NCBI RefSeq assembly: GCF_018362975.1
Contig: NZ_CP074371.1
Span: forward strand, 3,968,001-4,032,000
DNA: 64,000 nucleotides
Direction: 5' to 3'
From: Nocardia tengchongensis
GTDB taxonomy: Bacteria > Actinomycetota > Actinomycetes > Mycobacteriales > Mycobacteriaceae
A program made the position numbers and the translations under genes. Below, piece after piece: positions 17,165 through 32,807 of the stretch; within the stretch, counting starts at the first letter, position 1, and every line of letters begins with the position of its first letter. Below the pieces are notes generated by a model that worked only from the letters and a program-made list of their open reading frames with translations, made no database searches and had not been told where the DNA came from.

Positions 17165-20152
<2,988 letters not shown>

Positions 20153-20181
20153 CTATGCGCGCCGCGGTTGCCGCGCGGTTG

Positions 20182-20829
20182 TCATGCCGAACGTGGTTGT
20201 CCCGTACGCAATTTCGACGCCAGCACGGCGGCCTGGGTACGGCGTTCCATGCCGAGTTTGGCCAGCAGCCGCGACACGTAGTTCTTGACGGTCTTCTCCG
20301 CCAGGAACATCCGTTCGGCGATCTGCCGGTTGGTCAGGCCGTCGCCGAGCAGGTCGAGCAACTTGCGTTCCTGATCGGTCAAACCGGCCATCGGACCGTC
20401 GAATTCGGTGCTGCGCCGCAACCGGGCCATCAGCGCGGCGGCGGCCCGGTTGTCCAGCAGCGAGCGGCCCGCGCCCACCTCCTTGATGGCCTTGGCCAGT
20501 TCCATGCCTTTGATGTCCTTGACCACGTAGCCACTGGCGCCGGCCAGGATGGCGTCCATCATGGCCTGCTCGTCGGTATAGGAGGTGAGGATCAGGCAGC
20601 GCAGGTCGTCGATCTCGGCCAGCAGGTCCCGGCACAGCTCGATGCCGTTGCCGTCGGGCAGTCGCACGTCGAGCACCGCCACGTCCGGGCGCAGCGCGGG
20701 GATCCGGGCCAGCGCCTGGGCGACGTCTCCGGCCTCGCCGACCACGGTGAGCTCCGGGTCCTCCTCGAGCAGGTCGGTCAGGCCGCGGCGGACGATCTCG
20801 TGATCGTCCACCAGGAAGACTTTGATCAC
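20182..20829 (-). CDS. devR: DevR/DosR-type dormancy response regulator
   Basis: The 215-residue protein is strikingly close to M. tuberculosis DevR. The receiver domain begins [17 protein letters not shown] and holds the phospho-acceptor aspartate in [21 protein letters not shown], then [20 protein letters not shown]. The C-terminal LuxR helix-turn-helix reads [21 protein letters not shown] and ends in [16 protein letters not shown], the DevR DNA-binding helices. The GTG start at 20829 has GGAGG six bases upstream. It should activate hypoxia and dormancy genes, and the divergent hibernation-factor gene is an obvious candidate target. Confidence 0.95.
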
Positions 20830-20984
20830 GACGGCCTCCAGGATGTCGGTGAATCGCGGGCGGGCGCGCGGGTGCGCGAGGGGTCCGGCCAACGTAACTC
20901 GCGGCGCGGCAACGGGATACCGCCGAAGGTCCCTAATCTGCGGGCGGTTCGGGGGAGGCGCGATCTTTTGTCGGAGGATTTTCC

Positions 20985-21018
20985 CCGAAAGTGGTCTGTT
21001 TCGGGACTTTCGGCACTG
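20985..21018. promoter_or_regulatory. Candidate DevR (DosR) box between devR and the hibernation-factor gene
   Basis: At 20999-21018 the run TTCGGGACTTTCGG matches the left half of the DosR box (TTSGGGACTWWAGTCCCSAA) and the core of known boxes. An inverted CCGAAAGT at 20985-20992 mirrors ACTTTCGG at 21006-21013, 13 bases apart, as in paired sites. It lies about 75 bp before the hibernation-factor start and 170 bp before devR. Confidence 0.55.
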
Positions 21019-21088
21019 TCGGGGCTGCGGGGGGTGTGTTGCCATGGAGTTCGGTTGCCGGGTCGGAACAGGGAGAGCGGGGTCGGCT

Positions 21089-21919
21089 ATGGACGCGTTC
21101 GATGTGTGGTCGAGTGGAATCGATCCGGATTTCGTGGTGACCACGCACGGGCCGGTCCCGTCGGGTGAGGTGACCCGGGTGGTGCGCGGATTGGGCAGAA
21201 TCCTGCGGCGCCACGGGGTCGACGGGCCGGTGCGGGCACGCCTGCACTGGCCCGATCCCGCCGACGGGGACGCCGAGGACGGCACCACCCTGGTGCAGGC
21301 GAGGGTCCGAGCGCTGGGGAAGGCGTTCCGGGTACAGGTCGCCGGGCCGGGACGCTTTGCCTCCACCTTCGCGCTCGAGCGCCTCGACCTGCGATTGGGC
21401 TGCCCGCCCGACGAATTGTCCAGGCCCTGGCCCGATCCCGCGCGCCCGTCGCTGTCCGCGGTCACCGAACTGCGGCCGATCGTGCGCCGCAAGGACTGCC
21501 GACTAAAGGTGGCCACGCCCGCGGCGGCGGCCCGCGTGCTCGACGCCATGGACTACGACGCGCACCTGTTCATCGATGCCGAGACCGGCGCCGAGGCGGT
21601 GGTCTGCTGGACCGGACCGCTCGGGGTGCGGACGCTGGGCCGGCCGCGCGACGGCGTCCCGGTGCTGCTCGAGGACGAGGCGGTGGCCGGGCTGTGCCTG
21701 GGCGGGCTGCCGTACCTGTTCTTCATCGACTCCGATGTCCGCCGCGGCCGGCTGCTCTACCGCCGCTTCGACGGCGATCTGGCCCTGGTTGCCGCCGCGG
21801 GGTCGGAGGAGCGGGGCCGCGATCGGGACCGGGCGCGGCAACCGCGGGTGATCGCCGGCTGTGTCCGGCGGGCGCTGCCGGCGTTTATGCCCGACGTGCC
21901 GACTGATCTCGTGAGCTGA
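21089..21919 (+). CDS. Ribosome hibernation factor, RafH-like HPF family
   Basis: The 276-residue protein has the actinobacterial long-HPF layout. An S30AE/RaiA-like N-terminal domain ([22 protein letters not shown], about residues 10-95) is followed by two copies of the S30AE C-terminal dimerisation fold: [37 protein letters not shown], and a second ending in [32 protein letters not shown]. smegmatis RafH (MSMEG_3935), which stabilises ribosomes in hypoxia under DosR control, has this form. Divergence from devRS and the motif between them support the same role. An in-frame ATG at 21044 is an alternative start. Confidence 0.82.
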
Positions 21920-25169: not shown

Positions 25170-27080
25170 CTATTCGGCCGCGGCCACCGGCGTGGTGAGT
25201 TCCTTGACCTCGGCGATGTGACCGAAGTCGAGTTTGACGATCTGGTCGGCGCAGTCGAAGTACCGGTCGTCGTGGGTGATCACGATGACGGTCTTGCCGC
25301 GGTTCTTCAGCGAGACCAGGATCTCGCGGTAGAAGACGTCACGGAACTTCGGCTCCTGATCGGCGGCCCACTCGTCGAACAGGTAGATCGGCCGATCCTC
25401 GAGCAGAGCGGTCAACAGCGCCAGCCGCTTGCGCTGCCCCTGGGACAGCGCGATGGTGGACAGCCGGCCGTTCTCCACGGTGACCTTGTCGTCGATCCGC
25501 AGTTCCCGCAGGTACTTCCGGACCTCCTCGTCGACTCCCTCGTCGAAGCCGAGATAATCCTCGAACAGGTGGAAGTCGGTGAACACCGCCGAGGTGTTCT
25601 GCCGGAACCATTCGATGTTCTCGTGGTCGATCGCCTCGCCGTTGAGCGACAGGTGACCCTGCTGCGGGACGTAGAGGCCGGTGAGCAGTTTGGCCAGGGT
25701 GGATTTGCCGCTGCCGTTGCCGCCCACGATGAAGGTGAGCTGACCGGGCTCGAAGGTCAGGTCCAGCGGTCCGAGGTGGAACCCGGAGCCGTCGGCCTGC
25801 GGCGGGTCCATGGGACCGGCCATCGGTACTGGTCCGCCGCGGCCGCCGTGGCCGACGAACCTGTGCCCGTTGACATCCGGCCGATCCACCCCCTCCGGGC
25901 CGCGTCCCGGAGGCGGGCCGCCGGGTCGTCCGCCGGGATGCGGTCCGGGACGTCCGCCCACGGGCGCGCCCGGCGCCCCGGGCCGGCCACCACCGCCGGG
26001 ATGCGGTCGCGCACCGCCGCCGGGGTGGGGTCCGGTGCCGGGCGGCGGGAACGCCGGCGGGGCCTCGGTCAGATAGCTGTAGCCGACGTCGTTGAGTTCC
26101 AGCCGGGCGGCGGTGACAGCGGGCCGCTCGGTGTAGGGCAGGCTCGATTCGTCGTGCGCGGTCTGGATGCTCAGGTTGAGCGAGCGGATCTTGGACAGCG
26201 CCACGTCACCGCGCAGCAGGTCCGGGATCCGGTGCATGAAGTTCTGCATGGGCATCGCCAGGAACGTGGTGACCAGGACATAGCCGACCATGACGTTCTG
26301 TGGCAGATGCAGGGACCGCGCCAGCCCGAACAGGATGAGCGCCATGGTGGCCAGCTGCAACAGCTGCCCGAACCCTTGGGCGACAGTGAATTTCGACCCG
26401 GCGTCGATGTTCTGCGCCCGCAGCGTCTCGGCGGAGCCGAGCAGGTGCTTGTCCATGAAGTCGCGTCGCCGCCCGCGGTGCAGCTTGAGCTCCTTGATGC
26501 CCAGCGACACCGCCTGGAACGAGCGCAGCAGCCCGTCCTCGTTCTCGCGCGCCGAGTGGTACAGGGCGCGCACCCGCTTGAGAACCAGTTCGACACAGGC
26601 GATTCCGAGCAGCGTGCCCGCCACGGTGGTGGCGAAGATCGGGCCGGACACGACCGCGAGGAACACGAAGCAACCCACGATGGTGGCCAGGTCGATGCAG
26701 ATGCTCGGAATGGCCGTGACCGCCTGCGACAGCGCCCGCACGTCCTCGGTGAGCGTCGCGATCAGCCGGTGCTGGCCGAGCCGCTCGAGGTGCTCGAGCG
26801 GTGCGGACACGATGCGCGCGCTGAGGTCGGCGCGCAGCCGGTAGATGGCGTCCTGCGCCAGCCGGATCAGCAGCACCTGCGAGATCACGCCGCTGATCAG
26901 GATGACCAGCGCGGTCGCCACGAAGGCCCCGACGGTGACGCCCGGGTGCGGTTCCGGTGACACCACTCCCCGAATCAATGTCACCAGGTAGGTATTGGCC
27001 GCACCGCAGACGAGACCGGCGGCGATGACGCCGGCGATCCGCATCCACGAGATGGAGATGAGGAATCTGATGAGTTGCAT
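25170..27080 (-). CDS. ABC exporter, cyclic-peptide/SyrD-like half-transporter with a Pro/Gly-rich insert
   Basis: The 636-residue protein fuses a six-helix membrane domain (residues 1-290) to an ATPase. The layout is that of the SyrD/PvdE cyclic-peptide exporter family. Walker A is GGNGSGKS (453-460), the signature is LSQGQ, and Walker B is IYLFDEWAADQEP. An unusual insert of about 90 residues (341-432) lies inside the first beta-sheet of the ATPase, between VGYSYLTEAP and FHLGPLDLTF. It is almost all Pro, Gly, Arg and His, with HPGG three times. It is the third gene of an operon with a type III polyketide synthase and a desaturase. The ATG at 27080 starts 41 bp after the PKS stop. Confidence 0.88.
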   Translation of the reverse strand: MQLIRFLISISWMRIAGVIAAGLVCGAANTYLVTLIRGVVSPEPHPGVTVGAFVATALVILISGVISQVLLIRLAQDAIYRLRADLSARIVSAPLEHLERLGQHRLIATLTEDVRALSQAVTAIPSICIDLATIVGCFVFLAVVSGPIFATTVAGTLLGIACVELVLKRVRALYHSARENEDGLLRSFQAVSLGIKELKLHRGRRRDFMDKHLLGSAETLRAQNIDAGSKFTVAQGFGQLLQLATMALILFGLARSLHLPQNVMVGYVLVTTFLAMPMQNFMHRIPDLLRGDVALSKIRSLNLSIQTAHDESSLPYTERPAVTAARLELNDVGYSYLTEAPPAFPPPGTGPHPGGGARPHPGGGGRPGAPGAPVGGRPGPHPGGRPGGPPPGRGPEGVDRPDVNGHRFVGHGGRGGPVPMAGPMDPPQADGSGFHLGPLDLTFEPGQLTFIVGGNGSGKSTLAKLLTGLYVPQQGHLSLNGEAIDHENIEWFRQNTSAVFTDFHLFEDYLGFDEGVDEEVRKYLRELRIDDKVTVENGRLSTIALSQGQRKRLALLTALLEDRPIYLFDEWAADQEPKFRDVFYREILVSLKNRGKTVIVITHDDRYFDCADQIVKLDFGHIAEVKELTTPVAAAE

Positions 27081-27120
27081 GGCTGCTGGGCTCTCTGGAC
27101 GACTGTGCGGGTCGGACTGG

Positions 27121-28317
27121 TCAGGAACGGATGACGTCGAAGACGACGCCCTCGAGGGTGACACCGGGCGCGAAGGAGAACGCGACGCCCGTCGAGATCG
27201 GCTGTGCCGCCGCCTGTGCGACCATCTGCTCGAGCACGAAGATCAGCGAGACGCTGAGCATGTTGCCGTATTCGGCGAGCACGTCCCAGCTGGTGGCGGC
27301 CTGCTCGGAGCCGAGGCCGAGCGAGCGCACCGACTCCTCGATGATCTTGGGGCCGCCCGGGTGGATGGCCCACAGATCGATGTCGGACTTGGTCAGGCCC
27401 TGGCGCGCCAGCACCTCGGTCACCACCGGGTCCACGCCGCGCAGGATGTACTGCGGCAGGTTCTCCGACAGCTCGCAGGTGATGCCGTTGTCGTTGACGC
27501 CCAGCACGATTCCGTCCTCGGCGTCGTCGAACAGGTAGCTGAAGCTGTCGCGCACGACGATGGAGCCGGCCGGAAGCTGCTGGTGCGCCTGGCGGGCGCC
27601 GATGACCACCGCGCCGCAGCCGTCACCGAAGAGGCTGTGGATGATGACGTCGTTGACGTTGTCGTCGAACACGGCGTTCACCGAGCTCAGCTCGATGCAG
27701 ATGACCAGCGCCTTCTTGTCCGGGTGCGCGCGAACGTAATCGGTGGCGGCGCGCACCGAGTTCATGGCCGCGGCGCAGCCCATGAAGTTCACGACGACCC
27801 GGTTGACGGCGGGGGACAGGCCCAGCTGCTTGACCACGGCCACGTCCACGCCGGGGGCGATGAACCCGGTGCTGGTGGCGAAGACCAGCATGCCGACCTC
27901 GCCGGCGGGGTCCTCGAGGTGGGCGATGGCGCGTCCGGCCACGTCCACGGCCAGCGGCACCGCGTGGTCGTAGAAGGTGTTCATGCGGTCGCGGATGGTG
28001 CCCGATTCCCGGCTGTAGGACAGGAATTCGGGGTCGATCGGGTCGACCGCGAGGTGGCGGGTGGTGACCCGGGTCTTCTGGTAGATCCGCGGAATCCGGG
28101 CCTGCTGGGCCGGGTCGGTGAACAGCCCGGCCACCTGGGCGGCGGCGTCGGCCTGCGAGAAGATCTGCGCGGGCGCTCCGGTGGCGATGGACTCGATCAC
28201 GCCGACGGTGGTCGGCGGGGCCGGCGGCAGCGGCGTCGGCGCGAAGTCGTACCCGGGTTCGCCTCCCGCGAACCGGGTCACGGGCCCAGTGGCCCCTTCA
28301 TCGATGGTGATGGACAC
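27121..28317 (-). CDS. Type III polyketide synthase (chalcone/stilbene synthase family)
   Basis: These homodimeric synthases extend an acyl-CoA starter with malonyl-CoA and cyclise it to resorcinols or pyrones without a carrier protein. The 398-residue protein has the complete triad: cysteine 181 in NFMGCAAAMN, histidine 319 in WAIHPGGPKI and asparagine 352 in AEYGNMLSVS. The closing loop FSFAPGVTLEGVVF is present. An N-terminal extension of about 35 residues is Pro-rich. The GTG start at 28317 follows GGGAG. It lies between a desaturase and an exporter, so a long-chain acyl starter is a reasonable guess. Confidence 0.92.
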   Translation of the reverse strand: MSITIDEGATGPVTRFAGGEPGYDFAPTPLPPAPPTTVGVIESIATGAPAQIFSQADAAAQVAGLFTDPAQQARIPRIYQKTRVTTRHLAVDPIDPEFLSYSRESGTIRDRMNTFYDHAVPLAVDVAGRAIAHLEDPAGEVGMLVFATSTGFIAPGVDVAVVKQLGLSPAVNRVVVNFMGCAAAMNSVRAATDYVRAHPDKKALVICIELSSVNAVFDDNVNDVIIHSLFGDGCGAVVIGARQAHQQLPAGSIVVRDSFSYLFDDAEDGIVLGVNDNGITCELSENLPQYILRGVDPVVTEVLARQGLTKSDIDLWAIHPGGPKIIEESVRSLGLGSEQAATSWDVLAEYGNMLSVSLIFVLEQMVAQAAAQPISTGVAFSFAPGVTLEGVVFDVIRS

Positions 28318-28399
28318 GATGACTCCCCTCGTATTCTTTGGTGAAGATCCGCGGTGCGTCCGGCGCATGTGCGGACGCCCCGCGGTGCCCGGAATCGGT

Positions 28400-29884
28400 T
28401 CAGACCGTGCCGATTCCGGTGAAGCCCTGGGCGGTGTAGACGACACAGGTCTTCAGGGCCAGCGGTGAGAAGTGCTCCTTGACGAACCCCCACTTGCGTT
28501 CCACCGCGTCGTCGGACGGCGCGAGAATGTAGGTGCGGATCTGCTTGGGGAAGCGGTCGGTGAAGAAGCTCTTGGCCGGCAGCCATTCCACGCCGAACTT
28601 CTCCGACTCCTCACGCAGCACGTCCTCGGTGGCGATATTGGCGAAACCACTGCGCTGGTAAGGCAATACGTGGTGCACCCGGTGCGAGCTGAGGCCCGCG
28701 GACAGGAAGCAGTCCAGGTAGCGGTTGCCGACCACCTTCAGGTCGTAGGCCTGCTCGATCTGGTCGACGCCCCAGTCCTCGGTGTTGTGCTCGAGTTCCT
28801 CGGCCTCGACCTCGAAGTCGTGGCTGGCCACCACCAGGAAGGTGGAGACCCACAGGGTGATCACGAATTGCAGGGCCCAGGCCCAGAAGTCGCCCATCAC
28901 GGTGAAGGCGATGAGCTCGCCCAGCAGCAGGAACCGCGCGCCGAAGGACCCGATGAAGTGCGGCAGCGCCCCGCCCCAGGTGCCGTACATGTCCTTGATG
29001 CCCACCTTGCGGGTGAGGCGGCAGACGTCGAGCAGGCGGATGGTCATGCCGGTGACGGTGTGACCGAACTTGTGCAGGGTGTGGATCGGCACCCGGTACA
29101 GCCGTGGGATCCGCATCATCATGGTGAAGACGTTCTTCTTGATGTCGACTTCACTCTGGGTGTGCGGGTGGTGCAGCAGGGCGTGCCCGTCGGCGGTCAC
29201 GAAAGCCAGTGCGACGTAATTGAAGTCGAAGGCATTCGTGTAGATCTTGTTCATGCCCTTCTGGGCGCGGTGAATGGCGTAGTGCCCGAAGCCGGCGAGC
29301 GAGCTGCGCAACAGCACCATGGCGATCACGAACACCGGCAGCGGCATCCAGGGGCGCTCGAACAGGCGCAGGCCCTGTACCGCGAAATACAGCACGGCGA
29401 GCACGGCCACCACGATGTTGAAGTAGGTGTCCATGCGCCGGATGCGCGCGGCCAGCTCGGGTTCCTTGAGCCGGGCCTTCACCTTGTGCAGCAGGTCGTC
29501 CTTGTTGTCGAAGCTGAACTTCGGGGTGTCGCGCCAGCTGTCGAAGCCCTCGTTGAACAGGAACGCCGGGGCGTTGGCCTTGGGGTGGATGTCCTCGGGC
29601 AGGGCGTCGCGGTCGAGGGCGTACTTCTTCAGGATCCGGCCGATGGCTTCCGGATTCTTGTGGTACGAACCGACGATCGAGGTGATGTCGCGATTCTTGG
29701 TGCGGCCGATGAAGAACTCGCCGCCGGGATGCTTGGAGATCCAGTCGGAGAGGTCGTAGGCTTTGCCGTCATAGACCCAGACGTTGGATATCGGCGGCGG
29801 GCCGTCGAGCGGGGGCCGGCGGAATTCACCTTCGGGCGCCTGCCGTTCGACCGTGGCCTCGGCCTCTGGCCGTTCGATCGTCAT
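28400..29884 (-). CDS. Cytochrome b5-fused membrane fatty acid desaturase
   Basis: The N-terminal cytochrome b5 domain holds the haem motif HPGGE at residues 52-56 and the second haem histidine at 75. The membrane part carries the di-iron histidine boxes HYAIHR (201-206), HALLHHPH (234-241) and HRVHH (401-405), with hydrophobic segments at about 155-175, 181-200 and 318-350. This is the layout of front-end or sphingolipid-type desaturases and hydroxylases, which is uncommon in bacteria. The substrate is probably a long acyl chain. The ATG at 29884 has GGAGGAAAG upstream. It is the first gene of the operon with the type III PKS (83 bp downstream). Confidence 0.9.
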   Translation of the reverse strand: MTIERPEAEATVERQAPEGEFRRPPLDGPPPISNVWVYDGKAYDLSDWISKHPGGEFFIGRTKNRDITSIVGSYHKNPEAIGRILKKYALDRDALPEDIHPKANAPAFLFNEGFDSWRDTPKFSFDNKDDLLHKVKARLKEPELAARIRRMDTYFNIVVAVLAVLYFAVQGLRLFERPWMPLPVFVIAMVLLRSSLAGFGHYAIHRAQKGMNKIYTNAFDFNYVALAFVTADGHALLHHPHTQSEVDIKKNVFTMMMRIPRLYRVPIHTLHKFGHTVTGMTIRLLDVCRLTRKVGIKDMYGTWGGALPHFIGSFGARFLLLGELIAFTVMGDFWAWALQFVITLWVSTFLVVASHDFEVEAEELEHNTEDWGVDQIEQAYDLKVVGNRYLDCFLSAGLSSHRVHHVLPYQRSGFANIATEDVLREESEKFGVEWLPAKSFFTDRFPKQIRTYILAPSDDAVERKWGFVKEHFSPLALKTCVVYTAQGFTGIGTV

Positions 29885-29998
29885 TGCTTTCCTCCACACG
29901 CAGACACCGCGGTCGATCTTTCACACGGAATCGTCGATGCTGCGGCTTGCATTTCACTGAACAATCTCTTAAGCGGGCTTTTGTTAACAGTGGCCCGG

Positions 29999-30068
29999 AA
30001 AAAATGCGAAAGCCGGCCGGGGCGCTACGACAGCCGTTGCCGCCGTTGCGTGTTCCCCGAACCGGCTC
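29999..30068 (-). terminator. Probable terminator after the lipoprotein gene
   Basis: On the minus strand a GC-rich stem (arms 30056-30068 and 30012-30023, one small mismatch) with a long loop is followed by seven Ts (29999-30005). It lies between the lipoprotein stop and the desaturase operon. Confidence 0.5.
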
Positions 30069-30096
30069 TCAACTCACAGGACAAGCGGGCGCGTGT

Positions 30097-30927
30097 CTAG
30101 CCGCCGGGCTTGGTGACGTGGACCGGCTTGGCCCAGTCGGACAGGGTGACGGTGACCGTGCCCGAGTCCTTGGTCACGATGGCGCGCACCAGGTTCGGGC
30201 CGGTGCCCGGCGAGGCGGCGGTGGAGGGCAGGGTGGTGCCGGTGCCGCTGGGCGGGGCGACGTCCTTGATGTACAGGGTGATCGGGAACTCGCCGCCGTC
30301 CTTGCCGATCTGCGGGACGACCGGGTCCATGACGGAGGCGTCGATGGTGCCGGTGATCTTGACGGTGTCGATGCCGTCGATCTTCTCGCGGGCCTCGGCC
30401 TTGGCGTTCTTCACCTGCGAGATGGCGAACGCGAGACCCTTGTCCTTGTCGAGCAGGACGCCCGGGTCGTAGATCTTCTCGGCGGGGCCGACGGGGGAGT
30501 ACTTGGTGCCGTCGCCGGTGTAGAGGGTCTTGTCGACGACCATGAACTTGGTCTTGGTGAAGTCGCCGCCCTCCTTGACCTTCACCTCGGCGTCGCCGAT
30601 GGCCTGGCCTTGGCCCTGCGGCTGGTTGGTGACGTCGGCCTTGATGTTCTTGACCGAGAGCGTCGGCAGGTCCTTGACGTCGAGCACCACGTGCACCGAC
30701 TGCAGGGTCTGGGTGGTCTTGGCGGATTCGGCCACGATCTGCGCGCCGTCGGGCAGCTGCGACGGCGGGGCCGCCTGCGAGGTGGTGGCCTTGCTGTCCG
30801 AGCTGGAGGACGAGGTGCAGCCGGCCACCAGCGCGGCGGTCGCGGCCGCGGCGATCATGATCGGGAGCACGCCGCGCCGAATCCGGCTTCCGGACGTGCG
30901 GTTCCCCTGGGATATCAAGTCATTCAT
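30097..30927 (-). CDS. LppX/LprAFG family lipoprotein
   Basis: A lipoprotein signal with RRGVLPIMIAAAATAALVAGC gives a lipobox LVAGC near residue 36, followed by a Ser-rich linker. The 240-residue mature domain has the LprG/LppX beta-fold: SVHVVLDVKDLPTLSVKNIKADV, VVDKTLYTGDGTKYSPVG and the ending VTVTLSDWAKPVHVTKPGG. In mycobacteria LprG carries triacylated lipids and lipoglycans and LppX carries phthiocerol dimycocerosates across the periplasm, so this protein probably moves an acylated lipid. No P55-like transporter follows it. The start at 30927 has GGGGG upstream. Confidence 0.9.
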   Translation of the reverse strand: MNDLISQGNRTSGSRIRRGVLPIMIAAAATAALVAGCTSSSSSDSKATTSQAAPPSQLPDGAQIVAESAKTTQTLQSVHVVLDVKDLPTLSVKNIKADVTNQPQGQGQAIGDAEVKVKEGGDFTKTKFMVVDKTLYTGDGTKYSPVGPAEKIYDPGVLLDKDKGLAFAISQVKNAKAEAREKIDGIDTVKITGTIDASVMDPVVPQIGKDGGEFPITLYIKDVAPPSGTGTTLPSTAASPGTGPNLVRAIVTKDSGTVTVTLSDWAKPVHVTKPGG

Positions 30928-31349: not shown

Positions 31350-32186
31350 ATGACCGAAATCGTGAATACCGCCCAGTCCGAAGCCTGGAACGGCTACGAG
31401 GGCGAACACTGGGCCGGGCACCACGACCGCTACGACGCGGTGAACCAGGGCTTCAACGAGCCTCTGCTGGCCGCCGCCCGCGTCGCCGACGGCCACCGCG
31501 TCCTCGACATCGGATGCGGTAACGGTCAATTGACCCGCGCCGCCGCCCGCCGGACCGGCAGCGGCTCCGCGACCGGAATCGACCTGTCCGGCCCGATGCT
31601 CGCCCGCGCCCACGGACTGGCCACCGCCGAAGGCATCCCGAACGTCACCTTCGAACAGGGCGATGCCCAGATCCATCCGTTCCCCGCGGCCGCATACGAC
31701 GCCGCCCTGAGTCGCTTCGGCATCATGTTCTTCACCGAACCGGTAGTGGCCTTCGCCAATATCGCCCATGCCCTGCGCCCCGGCGGCCGGCTCGCCGTCG
31801 CCGCCATGACGCCACTCCCGGGTACCGAACTGGGTGACGTATTCGGTGCTGCCGCAGCACATCTCGACGCCTTCGCGGTGAGCCCCGCCGAGGGCCCGTT
31901 CTCCGAGCCCGACCGCATCCGAGACCTGCTGTCCACCGCGGGCTTCCGGGACATCGCCATCGAACACCGGGAGGCCGACGGTAGCTGGGGCGCCGACATC
32001 CCCGACGCCACCGAATTCATCATGGGCTGGGGTCCGGTCCGCTACCACCGCTCCCTGGCCGGCTTCGCCACCGACGATCAAGTCCGCGAGGCGATCTCCG
32101 CCGCCCTGGTTCCGCACCTGGGCGCCGACGGTGTCGTCCTGCGCATGACGGCCTGGCTCGTCACCGCCACGACCCCGCTACCGTAA
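31350..32186 (+). CDS. SAM-dependent methyltransferase (Methyltransf_11 type)
   Basis: The 278-residue protein has SAM motif I VLDIGCGNGQLT near residue 55, motif II GIDLSGPML, VTFEQGDAQIHPF and the LRPGGRLAVAAM strand. It is a small-molecule O-, N- or C-methyltransferase; the substrate is unknown. AGGAG lies six bases before the ATG. A TetR gene begins six bases after its stop, and two palindromic operators cover its promoter, so it is probably induced by a ligand of that regulator. Confidence 0.87.
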   Translation: MTEIVNTAQSEAWNGYEGEHWAGHHDRYDAVNQGFNEPLLAAARVADGHRVLDIGCGNGQLTRAAARRTGSGSATGIDLSGPMLARAHGLATAEGIPNVTFEQGDAQIHPFPAAAYDAALSRFGIMFFTEPVVAFANIAHALRPGGRLAVAAMTPLPGTELGDVFGAAAAHLDAFAVSPAEGPFSEPDRIRDLLSTAGFRDIAIEHREADGSWGADIPDATEFIMGWGPVRYHRSLAGFATDDQVREAISAALVPHLGADGVVLRMTAWLVTATTPLP

Positions 32187-32192
32187 CCATCC

Positions 32193-32807
32193 ATGTCCCC
32201 CCGCAAGGCCGCGGCGCTGCGCGCCACCGACGACGCCCGCACCCTCCGCGACCACCTCGTCACCACCGCGCAGCGCCTGCTCGCCGAGGGGTCGGCCGCC
32301 ACCCTCACCGTCCGCGGCATCGCCCGCGCGGCCGGCGTGGCCGACGGTGTCCTCTACAACCACTTCCCGGACAAGGACACGCTGCTGGCCACCGCCGTGC
32401 GCGCTCATGTCGACGAGGCGCAGCGCGCGCTGGGCCCGCTGCCCGCACCCGGTGAGGCCGCCGTCGCCGGCAATCTCGGTATCTATCTGCGTGCGGGGCT
32501 GGACCTGCACCGCGCGGTGCTCCCGGTGTTCGCGAGCCTGCTGGCCACCCCGGTCGTGCTCACCCGCTTCGCCGAACTGCCCGCCGCCCACTCCGACTGG
32601 CGAATGCTGTTGTCGGACTATCTGACCGGAGAACAGCGGCTCGGCCGCATCGCCGCCGAGGCCGACACCACCGCGGCGGCGGCGATCCTGGTGGGCATCT
32701 GTCACGACCAGGTGCTGGGCGCCCTACTGCCCGGCATGTCGTCGCCCACCGTCGATCCGGACGCGGTCGTCACCACGTTGCTGGCGGGCATCGGTCCGCT
32801 GGAGTAG
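32193..32807 (+). CDS. TetR-family transcriptional regulator
   Basis: The 204-residue protein has a helix-turn-helix at about residues 25-70 (LLAEGSAATLTVRGIARAAGVADGVLYNHFPDKDTLLATAV) and an all-helical ligand domain. It is translationally close to the methyltransferase gene (six-base gap) and probably represses this operon through the tandem TGAAC-N4-GTTCA sites at 31308-31335. Confidence 0.88.
   Translation: MSPRKAAALRATDDARTLRDHLVTTAQRLLAEGSAATLTVRGIARAAGVADGVLYNHFPDKDTLLATAVRAHVDEAQRALGPLPAPGEAAVAGNLGIYLRAGLDLHRAVLPVFASLLATPVVLTRFAELPAAHSDWRMLLSDYLTGEQRLGRIAAEADTTAAAAILVGICHDQVLGALLPGMSSPTVDPDAVVTTLLAGIGPLE

Follow-up and report, generated by a model that had tools for sequence, protein, structure and literature searches.

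A conserved gene block with a Pks18-type polyketide synthase, a cytochrome b5-desaturase, an ABC exporter and an LprF-like lipoprotein, and its probable role in a cell-envelope lipid of mycolic-acid bacteria

We analysed a 64,000-nucleotide stretch of Nocardia tengchongensis DNA (the window; contig NZ_CP074371.1, positions 3,968,001 to 4,032,000 of the forward strand). Reading of the sequence and domain scans located three co-directional minus-strand genes at 25170-29884, encoding a membrane desaturase with its own cytochrome b5 domain, a type III polyketide synthase (PKS) and an ATP-binding cassette (ABC) exporter. A preliminary description had called these three an operon for an exported lipid, with gaps of 83 and 41 bp; we measured 82 and 40 bp with the PKS starting at GTG 28317, which agrees. 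The three genes and their arrangement were borne out, but the description had overlooked the next gene upstream, which codes for an LprF-type lipoprotein. We consider it fairly probable that this block directs the synthesis and export of a single lipid of the cell envelope in mycolic-acid bacteria, a product that we infer from the genes.

We compared 60 fetched loci, comprising 43 of the main Nocardia PKS clade, nine of a second clade and eight from other genera. The desaturase was present in 51 of the 60 and was adjoined by the PKS in all 51 and by the lipoprotein in 50 (locus L115 being without it); 46 of the 51 have the exporter and five a sulfotransferase instead. Named genomes were also scanned with an alignment of the desaturase and the best 80 of 95 loci were analysed; the two sets share genomes and their counts are not additive. 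These best 80 came from Nocardia, Antrihabitans, Tsukamurella, Gordonia, Mycobacterium, Mycolicibacterium and one unassigned Mycobacteriaceae genome, and the named genera are ones that we take to bear mycolic acids. The PKS came next after the desaturase in 79 of them, with the contig ending in the remaining one, and an LppX-family lipoprotein lay no more than 1.5 kb from the desaturase in 77, with two others cut by contig ends. The three-gene order, whose recurrence elsewhere had been proposed as a check, is thus found across Nocardia, Gordonia and Tsukamurella. The arrangement is kept far beyond chance, which supports the earlier idea of a conserved lipid-making and exporting set.

The desaturase was detected in 54 of 401 genomes of the family and in 30 of 346 genomes of the genus Mycobacterium, in total 79 genomes with 83 copies. 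In 82 of the 83 the PKS lies directly downstream on the same strand, with 41-307 bp between the profile matches; the exception (genome G191, with the coordinates of locus L200) is a contig that ends just past the desaturase. A class-wide sample of 394 genomes gave six with the desaturase, all within the window's own family. Among the best 120 of 544 database proteins one match, at 84% identity, is labelled Streptomyces, through either misnaming of the record or transfer. Across several unrelated flanks the order of the block is retained, with uvrA/infC beside it in some genomes and at least four other neighbourhoods elsewhere, so its cohesion is not due to a common location alone.

Presence and absence in 150 Nocardia genomes tie the lipoprotein to the PKS. 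The main PKS clade (scored above 590 bits) and a strong homologue of the lipoprotein family PF07161 (above 180 bits) occur in the same 62 genomes, and neither occurs alone. They share a contig in 59 of the 62, at a distance of 1649-2155 bp, and lie on separate contigs in three; the lipoprotein is on the same strand as the PKS in 49 of the 59 and on the opposite strand in ten. Weak PF07161 paralogues (50-96 bits) were seen in 14 Nocardia genomes, two of them without the main PKS clade. We found no TIGR01194 exporter at E<=1e-40 in 34 genomes drawn from the 88 Nocardia without the main PKS clade, with 29 of the 104-199 candidates per genome scored; an E. coli control was matched. At the thresholds applied, the genome that the window comes from has no PF07161 match besides this lipoprotein and no TIGR01194 match besides this exporter.

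The PKS matched both the N and C domains of chalcone/stilbene synthases, and its Cys-His-Asn triad, noted as complete in the preliminary description, is invariant in 10 of 10 aligned rows including the window. The nearest solved structures were 7cb3 (592.7 bits), presumably an M. marinum protein, and Pks18 (1ted, 568.5 bits), with the next family at 290.8 bits. At the acyl-tunnel positions that we take to be T144, A148 and C205 of Pks18, the window PKS has Thr, Ala and Ser versus Thr, Ala and Cys (alignment, by eye); small residues thus fill all three, and Ser at the third is also found in 7cb3. Pks18 is described as an alkylpyrone synthase that uses C6-C20 acyl-CoA starters (PMC13141999), and its M. 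marinum orthologue, MMAR_2190, groups with users of malonyl-CoA (PMC5916927). Because of its kinship to Pks18 and the small tunnel residues, the window enzyme likely takes a long acyl starter, which fits the long-chain starters suggested earlier.

The PKS reading frame is open to 28446 and overlaps the desaturase gene, and several homologous matches hold a stop somewhere along their length; we therefore placed the start at about 28317. A second Nocardia PKS clade (loci L103-L111; 15 genomes by score, 60-66% identity) was considered as part of the same system and set apart, as no desaturase, lipoprotein or exporter match stands beside its PKS in the nine loci examined. In the two of its rows that were aligned, Asn replaces Pks18 C205. 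One genome (G486) carries both clades.

The desaturase protein scored 42.9 bits to FA_desaturase (cut-off 29.7) and 39.3 bits to Cyt-b5 (cut-off 23.7). Its heme pair H52/H75 and the eight histidines of boxes HX3H, HX3HH and HX2HH are invariant in 23 of 23 desaturases including that of the window. The earlier assignment as a membrane desaturase or hydroxylase with its own cytochrome b5 is thus upheld. Regarding its M. tuberculosis counterpart, a survey of IS6110 sites includes, among genes that it calls essential, Rv1371 with an insertion 17.8% along its length (PMC3443423).

The lipoprotein scored 192.3 bits to Pfam LppX_LprAFG (cut-off 24). Its best solved relative is LprF (220.1 bits), followed by LprG (87.6) and LppX (31.7). 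The lipoprotein that adjoins the desaturase-PKS pair in a mycobacterial-genus locus (L113) is likewise closest to LprF, at 289.9 bits. LprF was described in 2021 as having no known function (PMC8427324).

The exporter scored 422.7 bits to TIGR01194 against a cut-off of 286.2, in keeping with its earlier description as a cyclic-peptide-type ABC exporter; we take SyrD, PvdE and YojI to be members of this family. A Pro/Gly/His-rich insertion of about 90 residues (about 25788-26066) lies between the first ATPase strand and Walker A and splits the TIGR01194 match. It is present in 11 compared exporters and varies in length. Members of this family typically, though not by strict definition, have a peptide synthetase close by that supplies the substrate; none was detected at E<=1e-6 among ten of the larger frames of the window, the longest of which, at 1038 aa, is UvrA.

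We found that the exporter can be exchanged for a sulfotransferase. In the best 80 of 95 loci the exporter follows in 62 and the sulfotransferase stands alone in 15, with three cut by contig ends; the sulfotransferase occurs in 16 of the 80, once together with the exporter. The 20 mycobacterial loci within this set comprise 15 with the sulfotransferase alone, two with the exporter alone (L169, L174), one with both and two that are cut. The locus with both, L190 of Mycolicibacterium arenosum, has exporter and sulfotransferase in a single stretch with lipoprotein, desaturase and PKS, and is a link between the two block types. M. gordonae (L174, L179) and genome G207 (L115, L116) each carry two copies of the block, one exporter-type and one sulfotransferase-type. 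Both sulfotransferases that were scanned matched Sulfotransfer_1. In the window no sulfotransferase is found downstream, and the ABC exporter stands there.

Trees were built from 38 desaturase rows and 41 PKS rows, which represent 37 hand-chosen loci of the 131 that bear the desaturase, the window and three second-clade PKS loci. Mycobacterial rows, whether exporter- or sulfotransferase-bearing, formed one supported set apart from the rest (100/100; 100/99), and the exporter-bearing mycobacterial copies grouped weakly inside it (90/66; 88/67). Neither tree resolves the base order of Nocardia, Antrihabitans, Gordonia and Tsukamurella. The trees fit one old block whose exporter would have been lost or exchanged, the direction of the change not being proven. 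Since the sulfotransferase takes the exporter's place, the product of the sulfotransferase-type mycobacterial copies would probably be sulfated and exported otherwise.

The lipoprotein stop codon in the window is followed by a hairpin with z -3.06, and 0 of 200 shuffles were as low. The corresponding hairpin had z < -2 in 11 of 12 other loci (L113 = -1.38); judged by eye, the U run is clear in the window and not clear in most other loci. In nine loci with an inverted lipoprotein gene, hand-picked and including two from the same genome, the best hairpin 3' of its stop had z -3.0 to -9.1, and the best hairpin between the inverted gene and the desaturase had z -1.6 to -3.6 and was weaker in all nine; these z values come from crude block shuffles and are the best of several windows. 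The hairpin is probably the terminator of the lipoprotein gene because it travels with that gene, the inverted loci included. A 21-nt element containing the short palindrome TTCAGTGAA sits 62-82 nt 5' of the desaturase start and is single-copy in the 8-Mb genome at <=3 mismatches. Of 97 distinct upstream regions, 46 hold its 19-nt core with <=4 mismatches; these 46 are all Nocardia regions, and some other Nocardia regions exceed four mismatches; the best of five shuffles per region never gave fewer than five. Given the hairpin behind the lipoprotein gene and the conserved element upstream of the desaturase gene, we read desaturase, PKS and exporter as one transcription unit with the lipoprotein separate.

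We propose the following pathway. The Pks18-type PKS would extend a long-chain acyl-CoA using malonyl-CoA and form the ring of an alkylpyrone (or resorcinol). With electrons from its own cytochrome b5, the membrane di-iron enzyme would add a double bond, or less likely a hydroxyl, to the alkyl chain, and this could precede or follow the PKS reaction. The ABC protein may then carry the lipid across the inner membrane, and the LprF-like lipoprotein may take it into its pocket and pass it to the mycomembrane, a role like that proposed for LppX beside the DrrABC exporter of phthiocerol dimycocerosates. More specifically, and tentatively, the block could be a dedicated export route for a type III polyketide lipid in which LprF carries the Pks18 product through the periplasm and the SyrD-like ABC protein acts as the inner-membrane flippase. 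The flippase would have been exchanged for a sulfotransferase in most mycobacteria, and what had been a neutral exported lipid would thereby have become charged.

Several points weigh against an exported envelope lipid. The lipoprotein gene is probably its own transcription unit, to judge from the hairpin; no lipoprotein adjoins the desaturase in L115 (the G207 copy), and in L174 (M. gordonae) none was seen in the 1.35 kb available 5' of the desaturase. In an older paper LprF is tied to KdpD signalling (PMC3850990). The family TIGR01194 is named for cyclic peptides and not lipids, and the exporter is not beside the PKS in 15 of the 20 mycobacterial loci, with two more cut by contig ends. The test for exporter absence scored only 29 candidates in each genome. 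The 62 Nocardia genomes are not independent because they share ancestry, so a p-value for the co-occurrence is not to be taken at face value. The AlphaFold model of the desaturase is weak (mean predicted local distance difference test score, pLDDT, 61.8; predicted template modelling score, pTM, 0.61). A profile search of solved structures to E 1 found no relative of the desaturase domain, 19 of its 20 matches lying in the b5 region and the other being an annexin fusion at chance level (E 0.73).

The naming of the exporter family for secreted peptides, together with the terminator-like hairpin and occasional inversion of the lipoprotein gene, would suit a different reading, in which the three-gene set produces a small diffusible pyrone (a signal or antibiotic) for secretion and the lipoprotein acts as a receptor, protects the cell from its own product or handles lipids in an unrelated role. 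We regard this as unlikely, as lipoprotein and PKS are found in the same 62 Nocardia genomes and the matches are confined to mycolic-acid lineages; the C6-C20 starter range of Pks18 (PMC13141999) also argues against it. Less likely still, the product would remain in the inner membrane as a redox or storage lipid, resembling the quinone-like product of M. smegmatis pks10, and the ABC protein would only flip it. Some lipids made by type III PKS enzymes are converted into quinones (PMC5916927), but the near-constant companion of the block is a lipid-binding lipoprotein family. Among the protein clusters compared (unannotated), no fifth one occurs with the block in over 15 of 60 loci, and the methyltransferase gene at 31350 is rare.

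Many desaturases act on bulk lipids, and the enzyme could act on membrane fatty acids or phospholipids generally, with the PKS only co-regulated under stress. A table in PMC3898074 lists Rv1371 with a 15-fold rise, which would suit such a role. Wherever the contig allows, however, every desaturase copy adjoins the PKS, and we think this the least probable of the alternatives. We favour the making and export of one envelope lipid. Should this hold, a specific lipid cargo could be assigned to a further lipoprotein of the LppX family, and an ABC exporter of the peptide type would serve a polyketide lipid. Gene order and the pattern of presence and absence link two mycobacterial proteins that lack a settled cellular role, LprF and Pks18, to a single pathway, and the Nocardia form, with its exporter in place, would be a simpler place than the mycobacterial form for finding the product.

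Features of the block in the window
Feature	Position	Strand	Basis
SyrD/YojI-type ABC exporter (TIGR01194), fused membrane and ATPase domains	25170..27080	-	translation and domain match
Pks18-family type III polyketide synthase	27121..28317	-	GTG 28317 start; ATG 28368 alternative
Rv1371-type membrane fatty-acid desaturase-like protein, own N-terminal cytochrome b5 domain	28400..29884	-	domain match and alignment
21-nt element 5' of desaturase, kept in many Nocardia; putative promoter or regulator site	29946..29966	-	
Long terminator-like hairpin 3' of lipoprotein stop codon, then U run	30007..30071	-	shuffle test
LprF-like lipoprotein (Pfam LppX_LprAFG), lipobox LVAGC	30097..30927	-	domain match and structure-sequence comparison

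Genes for a methyltransferase (31350-32186) and a TetR regulator (32193-32807) are divergent from the lipoprotein gene and accompany the block in the uvrA/infC setting. They were rejected as block members, as the methyltransferase is found in only 8 of 51 block-bearing loci; all eight also carry uvrA in the compared stretch. The 64-kb window held no tRNA and no match to an Rfam family at the gathering score. Further away on the minus strand, at 17564-21549, lie a GAF-domain frame and a response regulator with a LuxR-type domain. No kinase domain was detected in the long GAF frame at E<=1e-6, and we take the two to resemble a DevS/DevR-type pair.

No genome among those searched was recognised as M. 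tuberculosis, and its gene order as used here is taken from earlier accounts; an insertion element, Rv1369c-Rv1370c, presumably lies between lprF and Rv1371. LprF is Rv1368 (PMC3850990), three numbers ahead of Rv1371, and Rv1371-Rv1376 are listed among possibly horizontally gained genes (PMC3087520). The preliminary description implied that the set lacked a known counterpart. This does not hold for the desaturase and PKS, which are the rv1371/rv1372 (pks18) pair; in M. tuberculosis and Bacillus Calmette-Guérin (BCG), rv1371/rv1372/rv1373 have been studied as an operon and the genes are co-transcribed (PMC13141999). Knockout and complemented strains differed slightly in lipid profile and in survival in sodium dodecyl sulphate (SDS); no product was identified there, and the authors favour a negatively charged lipid (PMC13141999). 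The main text of that paper mentions neither lprF, Nocardia nor a transporter.

Our literature search, which left most subscription papers outside, found none joining lprF to pks18 and none treating three of Rv1369c, Rv1370c, Rv1371 and lprF together. Among titles and the starts of abstracts we found none on an exporter-containing block or a Nocardia cluster of type III PKS and desaturase. The desaturase-Pks18 pair and its operon are thus already known; new are the link to LprF, the SyrD-like exporter with its exchange for the sulfotransferase, and the regulatory layout.

In comparison with known systems, the srs operon of Streptomyces provides for methylation and oxidation, as does pks10, whereas the window block has a b5-desaturase, an exporter and a lipoprotein; an srs-type methyltransferase partnership is not seen. 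The type III PKS of srs and of the pks10 operon of M. smegmatis make long-chain phenolic lipids (PMC5916927). The exporter resembles SyrD, PvdE and YojI in its score over the TIGR01194 cut-off and its fused membrane and ATPase domains, and differs in that no peptide synthetase was seen in the window and in the insertion before Walker A. In the system for phthiocerol dimycocerosates (PDIM), MmpL7 takes part and the PKS is of type I. LppX and the DrrABC exporter are needed there to move a polyketide lipid in mycobacteria (PMC8427324). By analogy, the window block would likewise combine a polyketide lipid with an ABC transporter and an LppX-family lipoprotein, but it has a type III PKS and a SyrD-like exporter. 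The rv1371/rv1372/rv1373 operon shares with the window a desaturase directly upstream of a Pks18-type PKS on the same strand and carries a sulfotransferase where the window has an ABC exporter.

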